From the NCBI GenBank assembly GCA_913050215.1, contig CAJXBG010000002.1, forward strand, positions 1-64,000: a stretch of 64,000 bases of DNA. Direction: 5' to 3'. The notes beneath the pieces are model-generated. The model did no database searches, was not told where the DNA came from, and saw nothing but the letters and a program-made list of their open reading frames with translations. Position numbers and translations under genes: made by a program. The stretch's first letter is position 1. Each line of letters begins with the position of its first letter. Below, one piece after another: positions 16,934-25,060 of the stretch. The stretch is from an uncultured Gammaproteobacteria bacterium (GTDB lineage: Bacteria; Pseudomonadota; Gammaproteobacteria; Pseudomonadales; Azotimanducaceae).

Positions 16934-17734
16934 ATGAAGTCAGAATCAGGAAGATACCACTTGGAACAGAACGAACTGATTGAGGCGTTACGGGAGTGGT
17001 TTCAGAGCCCTTTGGGCGAGCAGGTTAGCGAAACTCAGAATGCGATTCTAGAACAGCTTTTACCCGGTTATTTTGGCTATCACTTGCTGCAAATGAGCAT
17101 ACAGTCCGGTGTGCTTTACGAGTCAAGTCCAATCAGACATAAATTCAAGCTTGATATTCATCCTGCTGATTCAGCCTATTGCGCCGCTTCCCCGGCGGCA
17201 CTGCCATTCGCGAATGATTCTGTCGATGTCGTGCTTATGCATCATCTGCTCGAATATTCTAATAACCCTCAGCAATTACTCAGGGAGGTATCAAGAGTGT
17301 CCTTGCCGATGGGACACGTGGTAATTGTCGGTTTCAATCCCCACAGCCTCTGGGGACTTTGTAAGCCCCTAGGTCGCCTGAGGAAGCATCCTCTCTGGTC
17401 AGGGAATTTTATCCGTCCCGGAAGGGTGATGGATTGGCTAAACCTGCTTAATTTTAAAATTGATCGGGCGCAGTATTGTACTTACGGGTTACCCGTTGTG
17501 GGTTATAGCGGTCAGAAAGCCGATTATTCCAATGGATTGAGTCGGAACGCTAATCTACCGTTCGGAGCGGTTTATGTGATCGTCGCAAGAAAACAGGTTG
17601 GTACACTCACACCCATCAAGCCTGTATGGAAAACGCAAACATCCTTCGGTCGGCTAGCGGCCGTTCGCCCCTTGGCGGGTAGAAATGCTTCCCCGCGAAC
17701 AATTCGCGTCATCCCCCCCGAGAGCAAAAACTAA
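16934..17734 (+). CDS. YafS-like class I SAM-dependent methyltransferase
   Basis: A 266-residue protein resembling the methyltransferase encoded next to rnhA in many gammaproteobacteria (YafS in E. coli). The recognisable part is AALPFANDSVDVVLMHHLLEYSNNPQQLLREV in short: LPFANDSVDVV followed by HHLLEYS, a typical motif of the Methyltransf_11 group, then HVVIVGFNPHSLWGL. The classical glycine-rich SAM loop is not evident at the N-terminus, as seems usual for this family. Substrate unknown. The basic, Pro/Arg-rich C-terminus (last 40 residues) looks disordered. It is followed 26 bases later by the decayed rnhA. Confidence 0.8.
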   Translation: MKSESGRYHLEQNELIEALREWFQSPLGEQVSETQNAILEQLLPGYFGYHLLQMSIQSGVLYESSPIRHKFKLDIHPADSAYCAASPAALPFANDSVDVVLMHHLLEYSNNPQQLLREVSRVSLPMGHVVIVGFNPHSLWGLCKPLGRLRKHPLWSGNFIRPGRVMDWLNLLNFKIDRAQYCTYGLPVVGYSGQKADYSNGLSRNANLPFGAVYVIVARKQVGTLTPIKPVWKTQTSFGRLAAVRPLAGRNASPRTIRVIPPESKN

Positions 17735-17760: not shown

Positions 17761-18159
17761 ATGAGTACGGTTCCAATTTCTACGGATGGTGCATGCAGAG
17801 GAAACTGCACGCGAGAAAAAGAACTCTGGGGCGAAGATCATAGCACCACTAACAAGCGAATGGAGCGGATGGCTGCGAGCAAGGGGCTTGAACTATTGAA
17901 ACGGCAAGGCCGGGTTGAGCTAACTACCAATTTTCAATACGTCCGCAAGGGAATTACTGAGTGGAAAAAAATCTGGAAGGCGCGTGGTTGTAAAACGGCG
18001 AACAAGAAACCCGCCATGAATCACGATCTCCGGCGACGTCTCGAGCGGCTAGCAGGTCAACACGCAGTGAGTTGGCACTGGGTAAAAGATCACAGTGGTC
18101 ACAGGGAAAACGACATTGCAGAAACCCTCGCCAATCGAGGTATTGATGAACTTAATTAG
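17761..18159 (+). pseudogene. rnhA: Degenerate ribonuclease HI, 12-residue deletion and lost catalytic residues
   Basis: An open 132-codon frame clearly derived from rnhA (usual length about 150-155) but damaged. Retained: Asp9 (E. coli Asp10) in STDGACRGN, Glu35 (Glu48) in RMERMAA, YVRKGITEW, and His111 (His124). Lost: Asp70 is Asn57 (TTNFQY instead of TTDSQY) and Asp134 is Glu121. The spacing between the first Asp and the Glu is 26 instead of 38, so 12 residues covering the glycine-rich PGPGG turn and the first strands are gone. RGWKTA has become RGCKTA. It sits in the normal slot before dnaQ, 9 bases apart. RNase HI cleaves RNA in RNA-DNA hybrids; this version is probably inactive. It might still be translated. 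Confidence 0.8.
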
Positions 18160-18168
18160 GATAATCTT

Positions 18169-18873
18169 ATGAGGCAGGTTGTACTAGACACTGAAACAAC
18201 GGGGCTTTCCCCTGAACTTGGCCATCGGATTTTGGAGATTGGTTGTGTGGAAATCGTGGATAGGAAATTAACGAGAAGGCACTACCATCAGTACATTAAT
18301 CCTCAACGAGAAATTGACGATGGAGCGCTAGAGGTTCACGGAATTACACAGGAATTTCTTAAGGATAAACCGGTATTTAAAGACATCTTCAATCCGTTTC
18401 TGGAGTACGTTAAGGGGGCCGAGCTCATCATCCACAATGCACCTTTCGATGTGGCTTTTATTAATCGCGAAATGGCACTGATGTCTCCACAACTGGGAAA
18501 GATAACCGACTACTGTTCAATCGTTGATAGTCTGGAGCTTGCAAGAAATAAACATCCGGGACAAAAAAATAACCTAGATGCGTTGTGTAAAAGATACATG
18601 GTTGACAACTCACAACGAGATTTGCATGGTGCGTTACTGGACTCTGAAATTTTGGCTGATGTCTATCTGTTGATGACCGGCGGTCAAGTGACGTTAGGTT
18701 TGGGCGAGGTTGAATCGAGTAGCGGCGAGGAGGGTACGGGTATTCGTCGAGTTAGCAACGCACGCGGCAAGCTGAAAGTCATCAAGGCTGCTGAAGCAGA
18801 AGTTGCGCGACACGAGACATTTCTCAGTAAACAGCAGGAAAGTTCAGGCGTTGAAAACCTCTGGCAGGACTAG
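18169..18873 (+). CDS. dnaQ: DNA polymerase III epsilon subunit (proofreading 3'-5' exonuclease)
   Basis: A 234-residue DEDDh exonuclease. ExoI VLDTETTGLSPE carries Asp7 and Glu9, ExoII HNAPFDVAFINRE carries Asp94, and ExoIII LHGALLDSEILADVY carries His153 and Asp158. The clamp-binding motif after the nuclease domain is seen as QVTLGL (173-178). The C-terminal tail that binds the alpha subunit follows. The start is ATG at 18169, 9 bases after the rnhA remnant, with AGGATAATCTT upstream. All catalytic residues are intact, unlike its neighbour. Confidence 0.97.
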   Translation: MRQVVLDTETTGLSPELGHRILEIGCVEIVDRKLTRRHYHQYINPQREIDDGALEVHGITQEFLKDKPVFKDIFNPFLEYVKGAELIIHNAPFDVAFINREMALMSPQLGKITDYCSIVDSLELARNKHPGQKNNLDALCKRYMVDNSQRDLHGALLDSEILADVYLLMTGGQVTLGLGEVESSSGEEGTGIRRVSNARGKLKVIKAAEAEVARHETFLSKQQESSGVENLWQD

Positions 18874-19910: not shown

Positions 19911-21872
19911 TTACGACTGCTTGGCAATAGTAATTCGCTGATCTCCGATGCGTTGGGTAATTCTTTTGATGTCAAAATATTCGAGAATCTCAATACACAG
20001 GTTGCGACCTATCTGTGTCACATCACGGTATTCCTTGACTGAAAATTTACCGTCGGCATTTAAACGAGATGTTTCGTGGACGTGTAGCTCCAGTTGACTG
20101 ATACCTTCTGGAAGAAAATATCGATTGGATACGGGCTTGATCAGATATCCTAGTTTTGTGAGTTCACTTAATAATTTTTCGAGCGCACGCGGTGGAAGAT
20201 TCAGTGTCTTTGCTAAGTCGTGAACGACAGGGGGACGGATGGGGTCCGATTGTAAAATCGGTTCAACTTTTTCCCACAGTTTAGCAGCAGCACTGGACAT
20301 CTCTGCCCGATGCCCAGACAAGCCATACAGCCCATTTGCAAAAGACCACTTTTCTTTCGCAACCAGACTGTTTGCCGCCAATGTTGCGACACCAGCGGAA
20401 AGTTTGTTGCTGATCATCGAGCTAATTTGGCTAAGCGTTGCTCCGTTTTTCTGTTTGTCATTATTGAGCAGCGACTGAAGTTTTTCCGACATTGATGAGG
20501 TTAAATTCTTTAGATTTTGATCGCTAATTAACTGATCATCCTCTGATAAGTAGATCTGGTCACTCGAAGCTTTTTCGAGTGTGGCTATTGGCTTTCCCGT
20601 TTGATGAATCAGACCAAGGTGCTCTTCAATTTCTGATTTTGTGAAATTAAAAGCGTTCTCGATCGTCGAAATAGGAACACCGAGAGGGTTGGCATCGATT
20701 GAGCTTTTGAGCGTGATATCGACGTGCCGCGAGTCCCAGGCTGTTTTTATTTTACTCAGCAGCGCAACACGATCGGGCTTTGCTCTGCCGCGAACGACCG
20801 AGACAGGATCAAGTACAAAGCCGCCGCCGAGTGTTCTCTCGGCCGCTTGATCTCTGATAATAATACTATCTCCGACACAAAGATTAAGCGGCTCGGTAAG
20901 CACCAGTTGGGCGAGCCCGGTTGTACCCGGTGCAATTGCTGTCGAATCCAACGTTGCTACCCGGCCCCGGGTGTGGCTGGCGGCGAAGTGTACATGCACG
21001 GAAGTCCAGTGCTTCAGTGATCTTGCCTCATCTGGCAAAATATGAAGGGCGATGTCGCATCGCTCGGTTTCTCTTTTGTCAAGCTTCGTCGAGAGGTGAC
21101 TGCCCCGATGTATATCTGTCTTTTCAAGCCCCTGAGCCGATATGTTGATCGCGCATCGGTCTCCTGCACGACCCATGTCAGACGGTTTGTTCTGCCGATG
21201 AATACCTCTGATGCGTGCGATGTGCTGCCCTGGGTTGATGAGCACTTGATCACCTACAGACGCTTGTCCGGCAAGCACTGAGCCGGTGACGACCAGCCCG
21301 GAGCCTTTAACACTAAAACAGCGATCAATTGATAGTCTGAAAAAACCGGTGGCAGATTTCGATTCAAGACGAGATGACGTGTCGTATAGATAATCAGCCA
21401 ACGCCTCAATACCATCACCGGTTTCATTAGAAATCTTAAAAATCTCGCAGTTATCCTGAGACAAAAATGTGTCCATCGCGAGAGATTTTATTTGTTCTGT
21501 TACCTCGGCGACACGGCGTGCATCAACCCTGTCTGTTTTGGTCAGCGCTATGGCACCTTTGGTCACGCCAATTAGATTCAGGATTGCGAGATGTTCTTGT
21601 GTTTGCGGCATGGGTCCATCGTCTGCGGCAATCACCAGCAAGCCAAAGTCTATTTCTCCAACTCCTGCGACCATATTGTTGATGAACTTAGTATGTCCGG
21701 GTACGTCAATAAATCCGAGTTGATTGCTACCTCGGCTGCAATAGGCATATCCAAGATCGATTGTCAGTCCTCGTTTTTTCTCTTCAACCAGGCGGTCCGT
21801 GTCTATACCGGTGAGTCTTCTTACTAGGCTGGTTTTACCATGATCGACGTGGCCCGAGGTGGCAATAATCAT
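19911..21872 (-). CDS. selB: Selenocysteine-specific elongation factor SelB
   Basis: A 653-residue GTPase that brings Sec-tRNA to UGA codons with a SECIS element. The N-terminus has G1 GHVDHGKTSL at 7-16, G3 DVPGHTKFI and G4 TKTD, and lacks the EF-Tu N-terminal extension as expected for SelB. Domains II-III are followed by C-terminal winged-helix repeats (for example PPVVHDLAKTLNLPPRAL near 545) that bind the mRNA hairpin. It overlaps selA by 4 bases (ATGA), so translation is coupled. No selenoprotein gene with in-frame TGA, no selD and no selC were seen in the window. Confidence 0.95.
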   Translation of the reverse strand: MIIATSGHVDHGKTSLVRRLTGIDTDRLVEEKKRGLTIDLGYAYCSRGSNQLGFIDVPGHTKFINNMVAGVGEIDFGLLVIAADDGPMPQTQEHLAILNLIGVTKGAIALTKTDRVDARRVAEVTEQIKSLAMDTFLSQDNCEIFKISNETGDGIEALADYLYDTSSRLESKSATGFFRLSIDRCFSVKGSGLVVTGSVLAGQASVGDQVLINPGQHIARIRGIHRQNKPSDMGRAGDRCAINISAQGLEKTDIHRGSHLSTKLDKRETERCDIALHILPDEARSLKHWTSVHVHFAASHTRGRVATLDSTAIAPGTTGLAQLVLTEPLNLCVGDSIIIRDQAAERTLGGGFVLDPVSVVRGRAKPDRVALLSKIKTAWDSRHVDITLKSSIDANPLGVPISTIENAFNFTKSEIEEHLGLIHQTGKPIATLEKASSDQIYLSEDDQLISDQNLKNLTSSMSEKLQSLLNNDKQKNGATLSQISSMISNKLSAGVATLAANSLVAKEKWSFANGLYGLSGHRAEMSSAAAKLWEKVEPILQSDPIRPPVVHDLAKTLNLPPRALEKLLSELTKLGYLIKPVSNRYFLPEGISQLELHVHETSRLNADGKFSVKEYRDVTQIGRNLCIEILEYFDIKRITQRIGDQRITIAKQS

Positions 21873-23287
21873 AATGGCAGAAGGGGTAGTTGGTCAGTGA
21901 CGGCGCTTGCATCATCGAGTGTGCGAACATCAAAAATCAAGGCGCTGTCTTGCACCCTGCCAATCATTGGAAGTGGCAGGTTACGAAAAGCGACAATGAT
22001 TTGCTGCAATAATTGCTCATGACTGGACCCCGAATCAGAAAGCACCGGACATATTTTTATTCCCCAACTCGGTATCAGCGCCGTTGGAAGTGAGCCGCTG
22101 CCGATTTGAGATTGGCACTCAACTGTTTCAGTCGTGGCACAAGTGCCTACAGCGCTCTGCAGTATCGGTTTCAGATGTTCTGCCGTTTTTTTGATATCCG
22201 CCTGGCTTCTGGTCAGGTGTCGCAAGGTGGGAAGGTTTGAGATGACAGTCTCCGGGTTCCGATATTGTTTCAGCACCTCAAATAGCGCTGCTATCGTCAT
22301 TTTGTCGACTCTGAGCGCTCTCTTAAGCGGGTTAGATTTGATCCGGTTTACCAGTTCTTTTGTCCCTACAATAATCCCAGCCTGCGGCCCCCCTAGCAAC
22401 TTGTCTCCACTAAAGGTCACAATGTCAGCGCCATTTGTGACTGCTTGTTGTACCGTGGGTTCCGGAGGTAATCCGTGCGGACCGAAGTCAATTAGCGTTC
22501 CGCTTCCTAGATCCGTCACAAAGGGCAAGTTGTTTTCATGAGCGAGGGACGCCAGAGCCGCTTCGTCAACAGACTTGGTGAAGCCCTGTATCTCATAGTT
22601 ACTAGTATGGACCTTCATTAGCATGGCGGTTTCGGTATTAATCGCGTTTTGATAGTCCACCAGATGAGTTCGGTTAGTTGTGCCAACTTCTACAAGGGTG
22701 CAACCGGAACCTGACATGATGTCAGGAATCCGAAAGGAACCCCCGATTTCGACCAGCTCGCCTCTAGAAACCGGCACCTGTTTGTTTCTTGCTAGGGTAT
22801 TCAATACCAACAAGACAGCTGCAGCATTGTTGTTAACTATCGTGGCGGCCTCAGCACCGGTAAGTTCTGCCAACAATTGCTCAGTGTGAGAGTCTCTGTC
22901 TCCTCGTTTGCCGCTGGAAATATCATATTCGAGATTCGATGCCGCTGCAGCCACCGCACTAATTTGATCGATGGCAGCCTGCGGTAACTGTGAACGACCA
23001 AGGTTAGTATGAATAACGGTTCCTGTGAGATTAAGTACAGTTTGAAGGCTGCCTTGGTTTAGGTGAGAGAGTGTATTTTCCACTTCTGCTAAGAGATCAG
23101 AAGCTGTGGGAATCGGCGAATCTGGCGTGCGCTGCAAGCCGGCTCGAATTGTAGAGAGCTGGTCACGAATGCATTGAACAAGTTTTGTATGCCCATATTT
23201 GGCAATTAGCGGTGCAGCTTCGTCTGCACCAAGAATAGTGTCCACGCCCGGTATTCGAGCGAGCGGGTTAGATTTACCAGAACTCAC
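21869..23287 (-). CDS. selA: L-seryl-tRNA(Sec) selenium transferase
   Basis: A 472-residue PLP enzyme that converts Ser-tRNA(Sec) to Sec-tRNA(Sec) using selenophosphate. The PLP lysine is Lys296 in TFSGDKLLGGPQAG, matching Lys295 of E. coli. Other family marks are TGTVIHTNLGRSQL, NLEYD and GRGELVEIGGSFRIP (here SRGELVEIGGSFRIP). The length is normal. It overlaps selB by 4 bases downstream and follows the SPOR lipoprotein gene by 40 bases. ATG at 23287. Confidence 0.96.
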   Translation of the reverse strand: MSSGKSNPLARIPGVDTILGADEAAPLIAKYGHTKLVQCIRDQLSTIRAGLQRTPDSPIPTASDLLAEVENTLSHLNQGSLQTVLNLTGTVIHTNLGRSQLPQAAIDQISAVAAAASNLEYDISSGKRGDRDSHTEQLLAELTGAEAATIVNNNAAAVLLVLNTLARNKQVPVSRGELVEIGGSFRIPDIMSGSGCTLVEVGTTNRTHLVDYQNAINTETAMLMKVHTSNYEIQGFTKSVDEAALASLAHENNLPFVTDLGSGTLIDFGPHGLPPEPTVQQAVTNGADIVTFSGDKLLGGPQAGIIVGTKELVNRIKSNPLKRALRVDKMTIAALFEVLKQYRNPETVISNLPTLRHLTRSQADIKKTAEHLKPILQSAVGTCATTETVECQSQIGSGSLPTALIPSWGIKICPVLSDSGSSHEQLLQQIIVAFRNLPLPMIGRVQDSALIFDVRTLDDASAVTDQLPLLPL

Positions 23288-23327: not shown

Positions 23328-24032
23328 TTAGCCTTCTACTGCCTCTCGGATGGCGTCCTGCAACGGTCCTAGAGGTCTGATCCAGGGTTTTACCTTCAGG
23401 TTTTTAGCTGCGATCCAGTCCGACGCAGCTATTTCTGCTGCTGACTTGTCCGGGTAGATACCAAGGAGCAATACATGCCAGGGAGTACCCTGGCTATTTA
23501 TGAGAGCGGTCAACGGTGCAGTGATACCGTTGGTCTCGGCATACTCCATCACCTCCGATTGCTGCGGTAACGCGATGAGCTGAATCGTGTAGTAATCTGC
23601 CGGTTGCTCTAGCAAGCTGTTATTTTGTTCTGGTGGTGCGCTCTCCAGGGTTGCTGCCTCAGCTTGAGGTTCAGTAAACACGGGTGCCTCCAGCGAGGCC
23701 GTTGGATTCTGTTGCTGCTGTTGAAGCGTTTCTACCTCTGGTAAAACTGCTTGTCGAGGAGCACGGGTCTCGGGCTGTATCGAGGATATTTTTGTATCAT
23801 CAGCCTCTGTTTGGCATTCCCACTCTTCGACGCCTTGCTGCCCATAACAATGCCACTTTTTCGTAGTGCGCTGATTATCGATGAGAGAAGGGTTCTCGCA
23901 ATCAGGCCCACTGCACTGGTCGCCCTTTTTATTGAATAAGCCACCGATCGAATCAAAAGTTTTATTTACGGTCGAACAACCTGAAATAAAGCTCAAGCCA
24001 AAAAGAAATATGAGTGCAAAGCGTAACTTCAT
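23328..24032 (-). CDS. SPOR-domain lipoprotein
   Basis: A 234-residue predicted lipoprotein. The frame is open 70 codons further upstream into the next gene, but the signal peptide MKLRFALIFLFGLSFISGC begins at the ATG at 24032, with AAGGA upstream, so I use that start. The lipobox ISGC gives lipidated Cys19. A Gln/Pro-rich linker (about residues 85-150) leads to a C-terminal SPOR-like domain (YYTIQLIALPQQSEVMEYA, then WHVLLLGIYPDKSAA). SPOR domains bind denuded septal peptidoglycan. Its position between the desulfhydrase-like gene and selA looks co-transcriptional rather than functional. Confidence 0.75.
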   Translation of the reverse strand: MKLRFALIFLFGLSFISGCSTVNKTFDSIGGLFNKKGDQCSGPDCENPSLIDNQRTTKKWHCYGQQGVEEWECQTEADDTKISSIQPETRAPRQAVLPEVETLQQQQQNPTASLEAPVFTEPQAEAATLESAPPEQNNSLLEQPADYYTIQLIALPQQSEVMEYAETNGITAPLTALINSQGTPWHVLLLGIYPDKSAAEIAASDWIAAKNLKVKPWIRPLGPLQDAIREAVEG

Positions 24033-24073
24033 GAAGGACGAATTCCTTGTAAGAGTAAAATCGGTGTAAACCG

Positions 24074-25060
24074 TTAAAATTGCGATTTTTGTGGAAACAA
24101 ACCGAAAATGCCACCTGTGTGCAAAAACACCAGACATTTTGAATGCTGGAACTTGCCGGCCTTGATTTCTTGAATCATGCCGTAAAACGCTTTGCCGGTG
24201 TATACCGGATCGAGGATGACTCCCTCCAGTTGTGCCAGCCACTTGATTGTATCAAATATGACGGGTTCAGCACGAGCGTATCCGGGACCAACATATCCAT
24301 CTATGATATCAATCGCTGAGGGGCTGATCTCCTGTTGCGGACTGTAGCGTTTATTCCAGCTAGCAATATCTGCTGTAATTTTTCGGCGAAAATACGCCGC
24401 GTCATTGCTCACATTAAAAGCAATGGGTCGAGTCTCCAGCTGATACTTTTCGCGGCCTATAATCAATCCGCCCATCGTGCCTCCTGAGCCTGCCGCAGAG
24501 ACTAGGTACTCAGGTGAAATATTGTTGGCGGTAAAATCTTCCTTCAGTTCCTTGGACGCTTCGATATATCCCCAAAGACCAATTTCGTCACTGGCACCGA
24601 CAGGGATGAAAAAGGCTTTTTCACCCTGACTGGCGTATTGCGATATCAAGTTCTCAGCATATTGATCCAAAGCGTCAAACGTAGCTTGATCAAGATAGGA
24701 GATAGTGGTGCCTAACACTTGGTCGATGAACAGGTTTCCATCGGCCTCTTCTGGCTCCCGACCTCGCAAAAGCAGATGGCATTCTATGCCCAGTTGTCTG
24801 GCGATAACGGCGGTTGCGCGACAGTGATTAGACTGAGGACCGCCGGCAGTGATTAAACGTGTCGCGCCTTCTTCGAGCGCCTGAGCTACGCTGAATTCCA
24901 GCTTTCGAAGCTTGTTGCCTGATGCCGTGGTATCCGTAAGGTCATCTCTTTTTAGCCAAATTTCGGGTCCGCCAAGGGCACTCGACAATCTTTCGAGTTT
25001 TACCAGAGGGGTTGGCAATCTAGCGAGTTTTATTCTGGGGGGTGTCTGTGCCTGGTTCAT
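24074..25060 (-). CDS. D-cysteine desulfhydrase / ACC-deaminase family PLP enzyme
   Basis: A 328-residue fold-type II PLP enzyme. The PLP lysine is Lys50 in TASGNKLRKLEF, SNHCRAT carries the substrate-binding Ser/Asn/His, and AAGSGGTMGGL is the phosphate-binding loop. The family degrades D-cysteine to pyruvate, H2S and ammonia, or deaminates 1-aminocyclopropane-1-carboxylate; which one cannot be told here. The gene is 34 bases after the TPR gene and 41 bases before the lipoprotein gene leading to selA-selB. A role on D-selenocysteine or sulfide supply is only a suggestion from context. Confidence 0.85.
   Translation of the reverse strand: MNQAQTPPRIKLARLPTPLVKLERLSSALGGPEIWLKRDDLTDTTASGNKLRKLEFSVAQALEEGATRLITAGGPQSNHCRATAVIARQLGIECHLLLRGREPEEADGNLFIDQVLGTTISYLDQATFDALDQYAENLISQYASQGEKAFFIPVGASDEIGLWGYIEASKELKEDFTANNISPEYLVSAAGSGGTMGGLIIGREKYQLETRPIAFNVSNDAAYFRRKITADIASWNKRYSPQQEISPSAIDIIDGYVGPGYARAEPVIFDTIKWLAQLEGVILDPVYTGKAFYGMIQEIKAGKFQHSKCLVFLHTGGIFGLFPQKSQF

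Follow-up and report, generated by a model that had tools for sequence, protein, structure and literature searches.

The rnhA frame at 17761-18159 of the window, by which we mean the whole 64,000-nucleotide stretch of DNA that was analysed, is best read as an ancestral rnhA (RNase HI) gene in early pseudogene decay, made redundant by a second RNase HI that carries an N-terminal RNA-DNA hybrid-binding domain (HBD); we assign this reading a probability of roughly 0.8. The frame carries lesions, and its excess of changes is specific to this gene and to this branch. The same genome encodes a catalytically complete second RNase HI as well as RNase HII (rnhB), and across the family carriage of an HBD enzyme is linked to loss of the plain gene. 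Decay is supported because changes at invariant sites exceed those in the neighbouring genes and because a neutral segment fits the end of the rnhA branch. Judged by its residues, the protein is probably inactive; redundancy is the most likely cause of the decay, and gain of the HBD gene would have preceded the loss of rnhA.

Identity and lesions of the rnhA frame

Residues were numbered by aligning the window protein to E. coli RNase HI chains (PDB), which gave a 13-residue offset, and by a second alignment with relatives and the E. coli protein; for the changed sites, the E. coli number equals the alignment column plus 1. The locus comprises the following features.

16934-17734, + strand: Methyltransf_11 protein, upstream neighbour, 26 bp before rnhA; no signs of decay in the invariant-column and codon tests
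17761-18159, + strand: probable rnhA (RNase HI) relic, 132 codons, frame open; from homology, lesion and codon-model tests
17785-17787, + strand: codon of D9 (E. coli Asp10), retained; from the alignment that includes the E. coli protein
17803-17808, + strand: junction N15/C16 of a 12-residue (36-bp) in-frame loss, E. coli residues 17-28 missing; from alignment
17863-17865, + strand: codon of E35 (Glu48), retained; from alignment
17929-17931, + strand: AAT codon, N57 replacing Asp70; GAT or GAC in 14 of 14 aligned relatives
17989-17991, + strand: TGT codon, C77 replacing Trp90; TGG in 14 of 14 aligned relatives
18121-18123, + strand: GAA codon, E121 replacing Asp134; GAC or GAT in 14 of 14 aligned relatives
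18169-18873, + strand: dnaQ, downstream neighbour, 9 bp after rnhA; no signs of decay in the invariant-column and codon tests

The window frame scored 82.8 bits against PF00075 (RNase_H; gathering cut-off, 25.8) and is therefore a member by homology; in a search that included the five relatives in the genus, it scored 79.8 bits and they scored 166.8 to 173.1. Against the NCBIfam RNase HI equivalog NF001236 it reached 129 bits, under the curated cut-off of 160. Full-length RNase HI with all four catalytic residues was found in the five other genomes of the genus, so that the truncated form occurs in one of six. Structure predictions for the window protein and for its L004 homologue, each made from an alignment of two rows only, had mean pLDDT values of 43.7 and 43.8, respectively.

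In E. coli RNase HI the metal site consists of D10, E48, D70 and D134, of which D134 is partly dispensable, according to the available part of PMC4032109. Both alignments placed D9, E35, N57 and E121 at these four positions, where the window protein thus reads D/E/N/E, an incomplete set. The spacing from D9 to E35 is 26 residues versus 38 in E. coli, meaning that 12 residues are gone, and the RGWKTA motif reads RGCKTA. Each of these observations bears out the preliminary description, which had also reported an open frame; the translation holds no stop, and neither a stop codon nor a frameshift was detected in the window rnhA. Its statement that two catalytic carboxylates were lost stands for Asp70, which is now Asn, but not for Asp134, where the replacing Glu is altered yet still a carboxylate. 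Further radical changes at sites invariant in the 14 aligned relatives (E. coli numbers) are G38E, N45K, L49R, I53S, S71F, W90C, K99M, W104R and G123D, with D70N classed alongside them. E39D (glutamate being the family residue at E. coli position 39), V98A and E131D make up, with D134E, the four mild changes among the 14. Asp10, Glu48, the counterpart of His124 and much of the basic region are kept.

The extent of change was then set against relatives and neighbouring genes. Fifteen sequences were aligned, after G046, G047 and G052 (from other families of the order) had been included in a first alignment and dropped; G182, a near copy of G176, was omitted from the invariant-column test. In the resulting 14-sequence alignment, the window rnhA is changed at 14 of the 58 columns that are invariant in the 13 other family sequences, which makes the lesions listed in the preliminary description real but the list too short. 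Each of the 13 others showed zero to three changes in 44 to 47 such columns, a smaller set because the window sequence then counts among the comparators. For the neighbours in the window genome, the counts were 2 of 79 for dnaQ and 1 of 38 for the methyltransferase. A high count of this kind is not proof of decay, as the neighbours in G009 also score high (methyltransferase, 16 of 53; dnaQ, 10 of 87).

Elsewhere in the window, selB (19911-21872) and selA (21869-23287) are found nearby on the - strand (19911-23287), so that the organism probably decodes selenocysteine. The - strand also has two long overlapping frames within 23328-25060: one at 24074-25060 encodes a PLP-dependent enzyme (PF00291), and the other, a 304-residue and possibly spurious frame at 23328-24242, matched nothing in Pfam at 1e-5.

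Codon models and the open frame

All codon models used 13 of the 15 sequences, with G182 and G009 left out. When one omega was fitted per branch, rnhA gave 0.029 on the window branch and 0.036 elsewhere, which is no difference, and synonymous change was saturated; the window branch hit its length bound for rnhA, dnaQ and the methyltransferase. An omega of 1 across the entire window branch was rejected (2 delta lnL, 25.96), and decay of rnhA can therefore only be recent. A scan of genome contigs gave one locus, at 51%, which is too distant for strain-level dN/dS. Because the relatives are too distant for ordinary dN/dS, a model was built that combines three site classes with a neutral segment terminating one branch.

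Placed at the end of the window branch, this segment was favoured for rnhA (2 delta lnL, 25.75) at a length of 0.275 substitutions per codon, or about 36 in the frame. Lengths within 1.92 log units ranged roughly from 0.15 to 0.45 substitutions per codon, in a profile that held the other branches fixed while the window branch was re-fitted along with the model parameters. For dnaQ and the methyltransferase, on both the window and the G001 branch, the fitted segment was absent or negligible (<=0.007); when rnhA was examined on nine other branches, no gain in 2 delta lnL exceeded 2.05 (reached on G168). The earlier account of dnaQ as normal agrees with this result and with its low count of changed invariant positions.

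With three relatives and the window frame as starting sequences, simulations gave the probability that a neutral frame acquires no stop, frameshifts being uncounted. This was 0.20 to 0.28 at the best estimate of 0.275 substitutions per codon, 0.45 to 0.51 at 0.13, and 0.09 to 0.15 at 0.45. Since neutrality leaves the frame open with a chance of 0.20 to 0.28, its openness is no evidence of function.

HBD-type RNase HI and the plain gene across the family

A whole-genome search for a second rnhA and for rnhB, which the preliminary description had proposed, found both. The profile search gave a single PF01351 match for rnhB (146.3 bits), and contig C90 (G000:C90:7718-8461, L064) was found to encode a second RNase HI with PF01693 (Ribonuclease H1 N-terminal domain, the HBD) and PF00075. 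Alignment with relatives showed all four catalytic residues (D/E/D/D) in this enzyme; the earlier suggestion that the organism must rely on RNase HII if no other rnhA exists consequently does not apply.

The C90 enzyme is 77.6% identical to the copy in G092, a genome of another genus, versus 44 to 49% to the copies in its own genus (G002, partial; G003, which holds two different copies; and G004). For comparison, dnaQ of G092 is 66.5% identical to the window dnaQ. In a FastTree phylogeny that left out G183, whose gene runs off its contig, the C90 enzyme grouped with G092 at a support of 1.00. The other genes of C90 had no counterpart near the HBD gene of other carriers, in stretches of about 3.4 to 12 kb, apart from weak matches in G003 (39%) and G014 (28%). 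The simplest reading of these comparisons is that the enzyme was probably gained laterally, while ancient paralogy with losses may be an alternative origin. The window genome is a draft of 258 contigs with 2.53% estimated contamination, and C90 was assigned to it by binning, with sole support from a neighbouring 1,155-residue gene, presumably putA-like, whose best match in the 58 genomes searched, its own aside, is a member of the genus (72%) and whose next is from another genus (71%).

To 206 genomes of the family, PF00075 gave matches in 184, PF01693 in 16 and the window dnaQ in 182. The dnaQ orthologue set comprised 181 genomes, G023 being excluded for its weak match (E, 6.2e-5; 29%), and G002, whose partial copy is cut by a contig end but groups with those of G003 and G004, brought the number of HBD carriers to 17. 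Within this set, 8 of 17 HBD carriers have lost plain rnhA or hold a damaged copy, versus 0 of 164 non-carriers in which it is missing; the non-carriers all have an RNase_H match and were judged by best E-value (1e-40 or better, three excepted) rather than by gene-by-gene reading. Fisher's test gave 1.0e-9 by genome, a value that ignores kinship, and 1.1e-8 without the window genome (7 of 16 carriers); by genus it gave 6.5e-5 (5 of 7 versus 0 of 28) and, without the window genus, 3.2e-4 (4 of 6 versus 0 of 28). Some non-carriers of genus g8 were counted through frames of 326 to 335 residues that have two RNase_H matches each, apparently tandem domains (L090/L112 = G073:C49; G012:C48).

Loss is not forced by the HBD enzyme, as 9 of the 17 carriers have an intact plain rnhA (G002, G003, G004, G167, G168, G176, G182, G017 and G103). 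The remaining carriers form a staged series at one locus: a degraded open frame in the window genome, broken, stop-containing genes in G180 and G183, and no detectable trace between the methyltransferase and dnaQ in G006, G014, G091, G092 and G111. Outside the family but within the order, G057 has the HBD enzyme without plain rnhA and extends the last stage, and G037 and G042 have both. The remnants in G180 (L115) and G183 (L119) are without an N-terminal part and sit between the methyltransferase and dnaQ; the C-terminal half reads cleanly in G180 and is more decayed, with stops, in G183.

Several candidate losses were rejected. Matches in G161 and G181 sit at contig ends, and that in G036 is interrupted by a run of N within the gene, all of which are technical; these are the three genomes excepted from the E-value limit above. 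Loss in family genomes that have no HBD enzyme was likewise rejected for the 22 of 206 genomes with no RNase_H match, as these also have no good dnaQ: 18 have no dnaQ match, G023 has the weak one, and G186 and two more are dnaQ-less by elimination. With dnaQ missing too, the locus is most likely unassembled in these genomes.

Together, the stages suggest a course in which the lineage would have gained an RNase HI with an N-terminal HBD, and this enzyme and RNase HII would have taken over the removal of hybrids. The old rnhA, no longer under selection, would then have lost segment 17-28 and gathered random substitutions, including that at the metal-site Asp70. The family amounts to a natural experiment, with close relatives that have the plain enzyme only, both enzymes or the HBD enzyme only. 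It provides ordered stages (intact, decayed frame, broken remnant and no trace) by which a conserved gene gives way to a second version that probably moves laterally.

Alternative readings and known systems

The preliminary description had left two options, an early pseudogene or a catalytically dead protein kept for hybrid binding; the former is supported, whereas the latter fits poorly with losses that run frame-wide rather than being catalytic only and with branch-end drift that fits neutrality. That selection keeps a catalytically dead RNase HI for binding RNA-DNA hybrids or for regulation is accordingly judged unlikely, although such a role would suit the open frame and the persistence of Asp10, Glu48, the equivalent of His124 and a large part of the basic region. 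Segment 17-28 is lost together with Asn45, Ser71, Trp90, Lys99 and Trp104, all of which we take to serve fold and substrate contact. The neutral end segment fits rnhA and is absent in its neighbours, the five other genus genomes have complete enzymes, and a dedicated HBD enzyme is already in the genome. We hold it just as improbable that the truncated, Asp70-less protein was repurposed to bind hybrids without cleaving them, or as a factor coupled to dnaQ, once the HBD enzyme took over catalysis. Slightly more doubtful is that the frame of a non-functional protein is kept open for translational coupling, in which ribosomes finishing rnhA help to start dnaQ. The gaps of 26 and 9 bp on one strand would allow this, but the frame is broken in G180 and G183 and gone in five carriers while dnaQ is open throughout, and at a probability of 0.20 to 0.28 an open frame needs no special cause.

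An assembly or base-calling artefact is very unlikely: the assembly is a draft in 258 contigs, but the 14 private changes lie across a frame that is still open, and its two neighbours on this contig, dnaQ and the methyltransferase, are normal. Nor is a single miscalled base a likely cause, given that private changes occur throughout the frame. Least credible is a weakly active variant enzyme. Glu134 could bind metal, and Asp134 is not fully essential in E. coli as far as the available part of PMC4032109 goes; however, Asp70, a metal-site residue in the same source, is Asn here, and the chain lacks 12 residues close to the active-site strand. Overall, we favour decay of a redundant gene.

Like canonical E. 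coli-type rnhA, the window copy lies above the Pfam RNase_H cut-off and keeps the methyltransferase-rnhA-dnaQ order of its genus relatives; unlike it, the copy is 12 residues shorter, has no Asp70, has Asp134 replaced and falls under the equivalog cut-off. In the available part of PMC1950709, B. subtilis-type RNase HI (Group A) is described as having no nuclease activity and no basic protrusion. The window copy resembles Group A as a presumably inactive RNase HI homologue beside other RNases H, but it retains the basic region, has lost 17-28 and scattered conserved residues, and occurs in one of six genus genomes.

The closest precedent is Model B of Kochiwa, Tomita and Kanai (2007), in which an RNase HI with a dsRHbd/HBD replaces the plain enzyme (PMC1950709). 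As far as the available part of that paper goes, the HBD enzyme may have displaced the plain gene in 21 of 31 HBD species, judged by presence and absence in 353 genomes, and some RNase HI genes may be undergoing nonfunctionalisation. The stages described here lend direct support to this redundancy model, whose earlier basis was presence and absence. Among the matches listed in a limited collection searched with a limited set of terms, the titles and abstract openings included none that dealt with rnhA decay in a genome carrying an HBD enzyme. The kind of event is already known, and the value of the present case is as a staged example of RNase HI displacement rather than as a new mechanism. As in Model B, an HBD enzyme (here the catalytically complete one at C90:7718-8461 in the window genome) stands alongside loss of the orthologous plain enzyme; unlike in the part of that account available, the intermediate stages are here seen at one anchored locus in one family.
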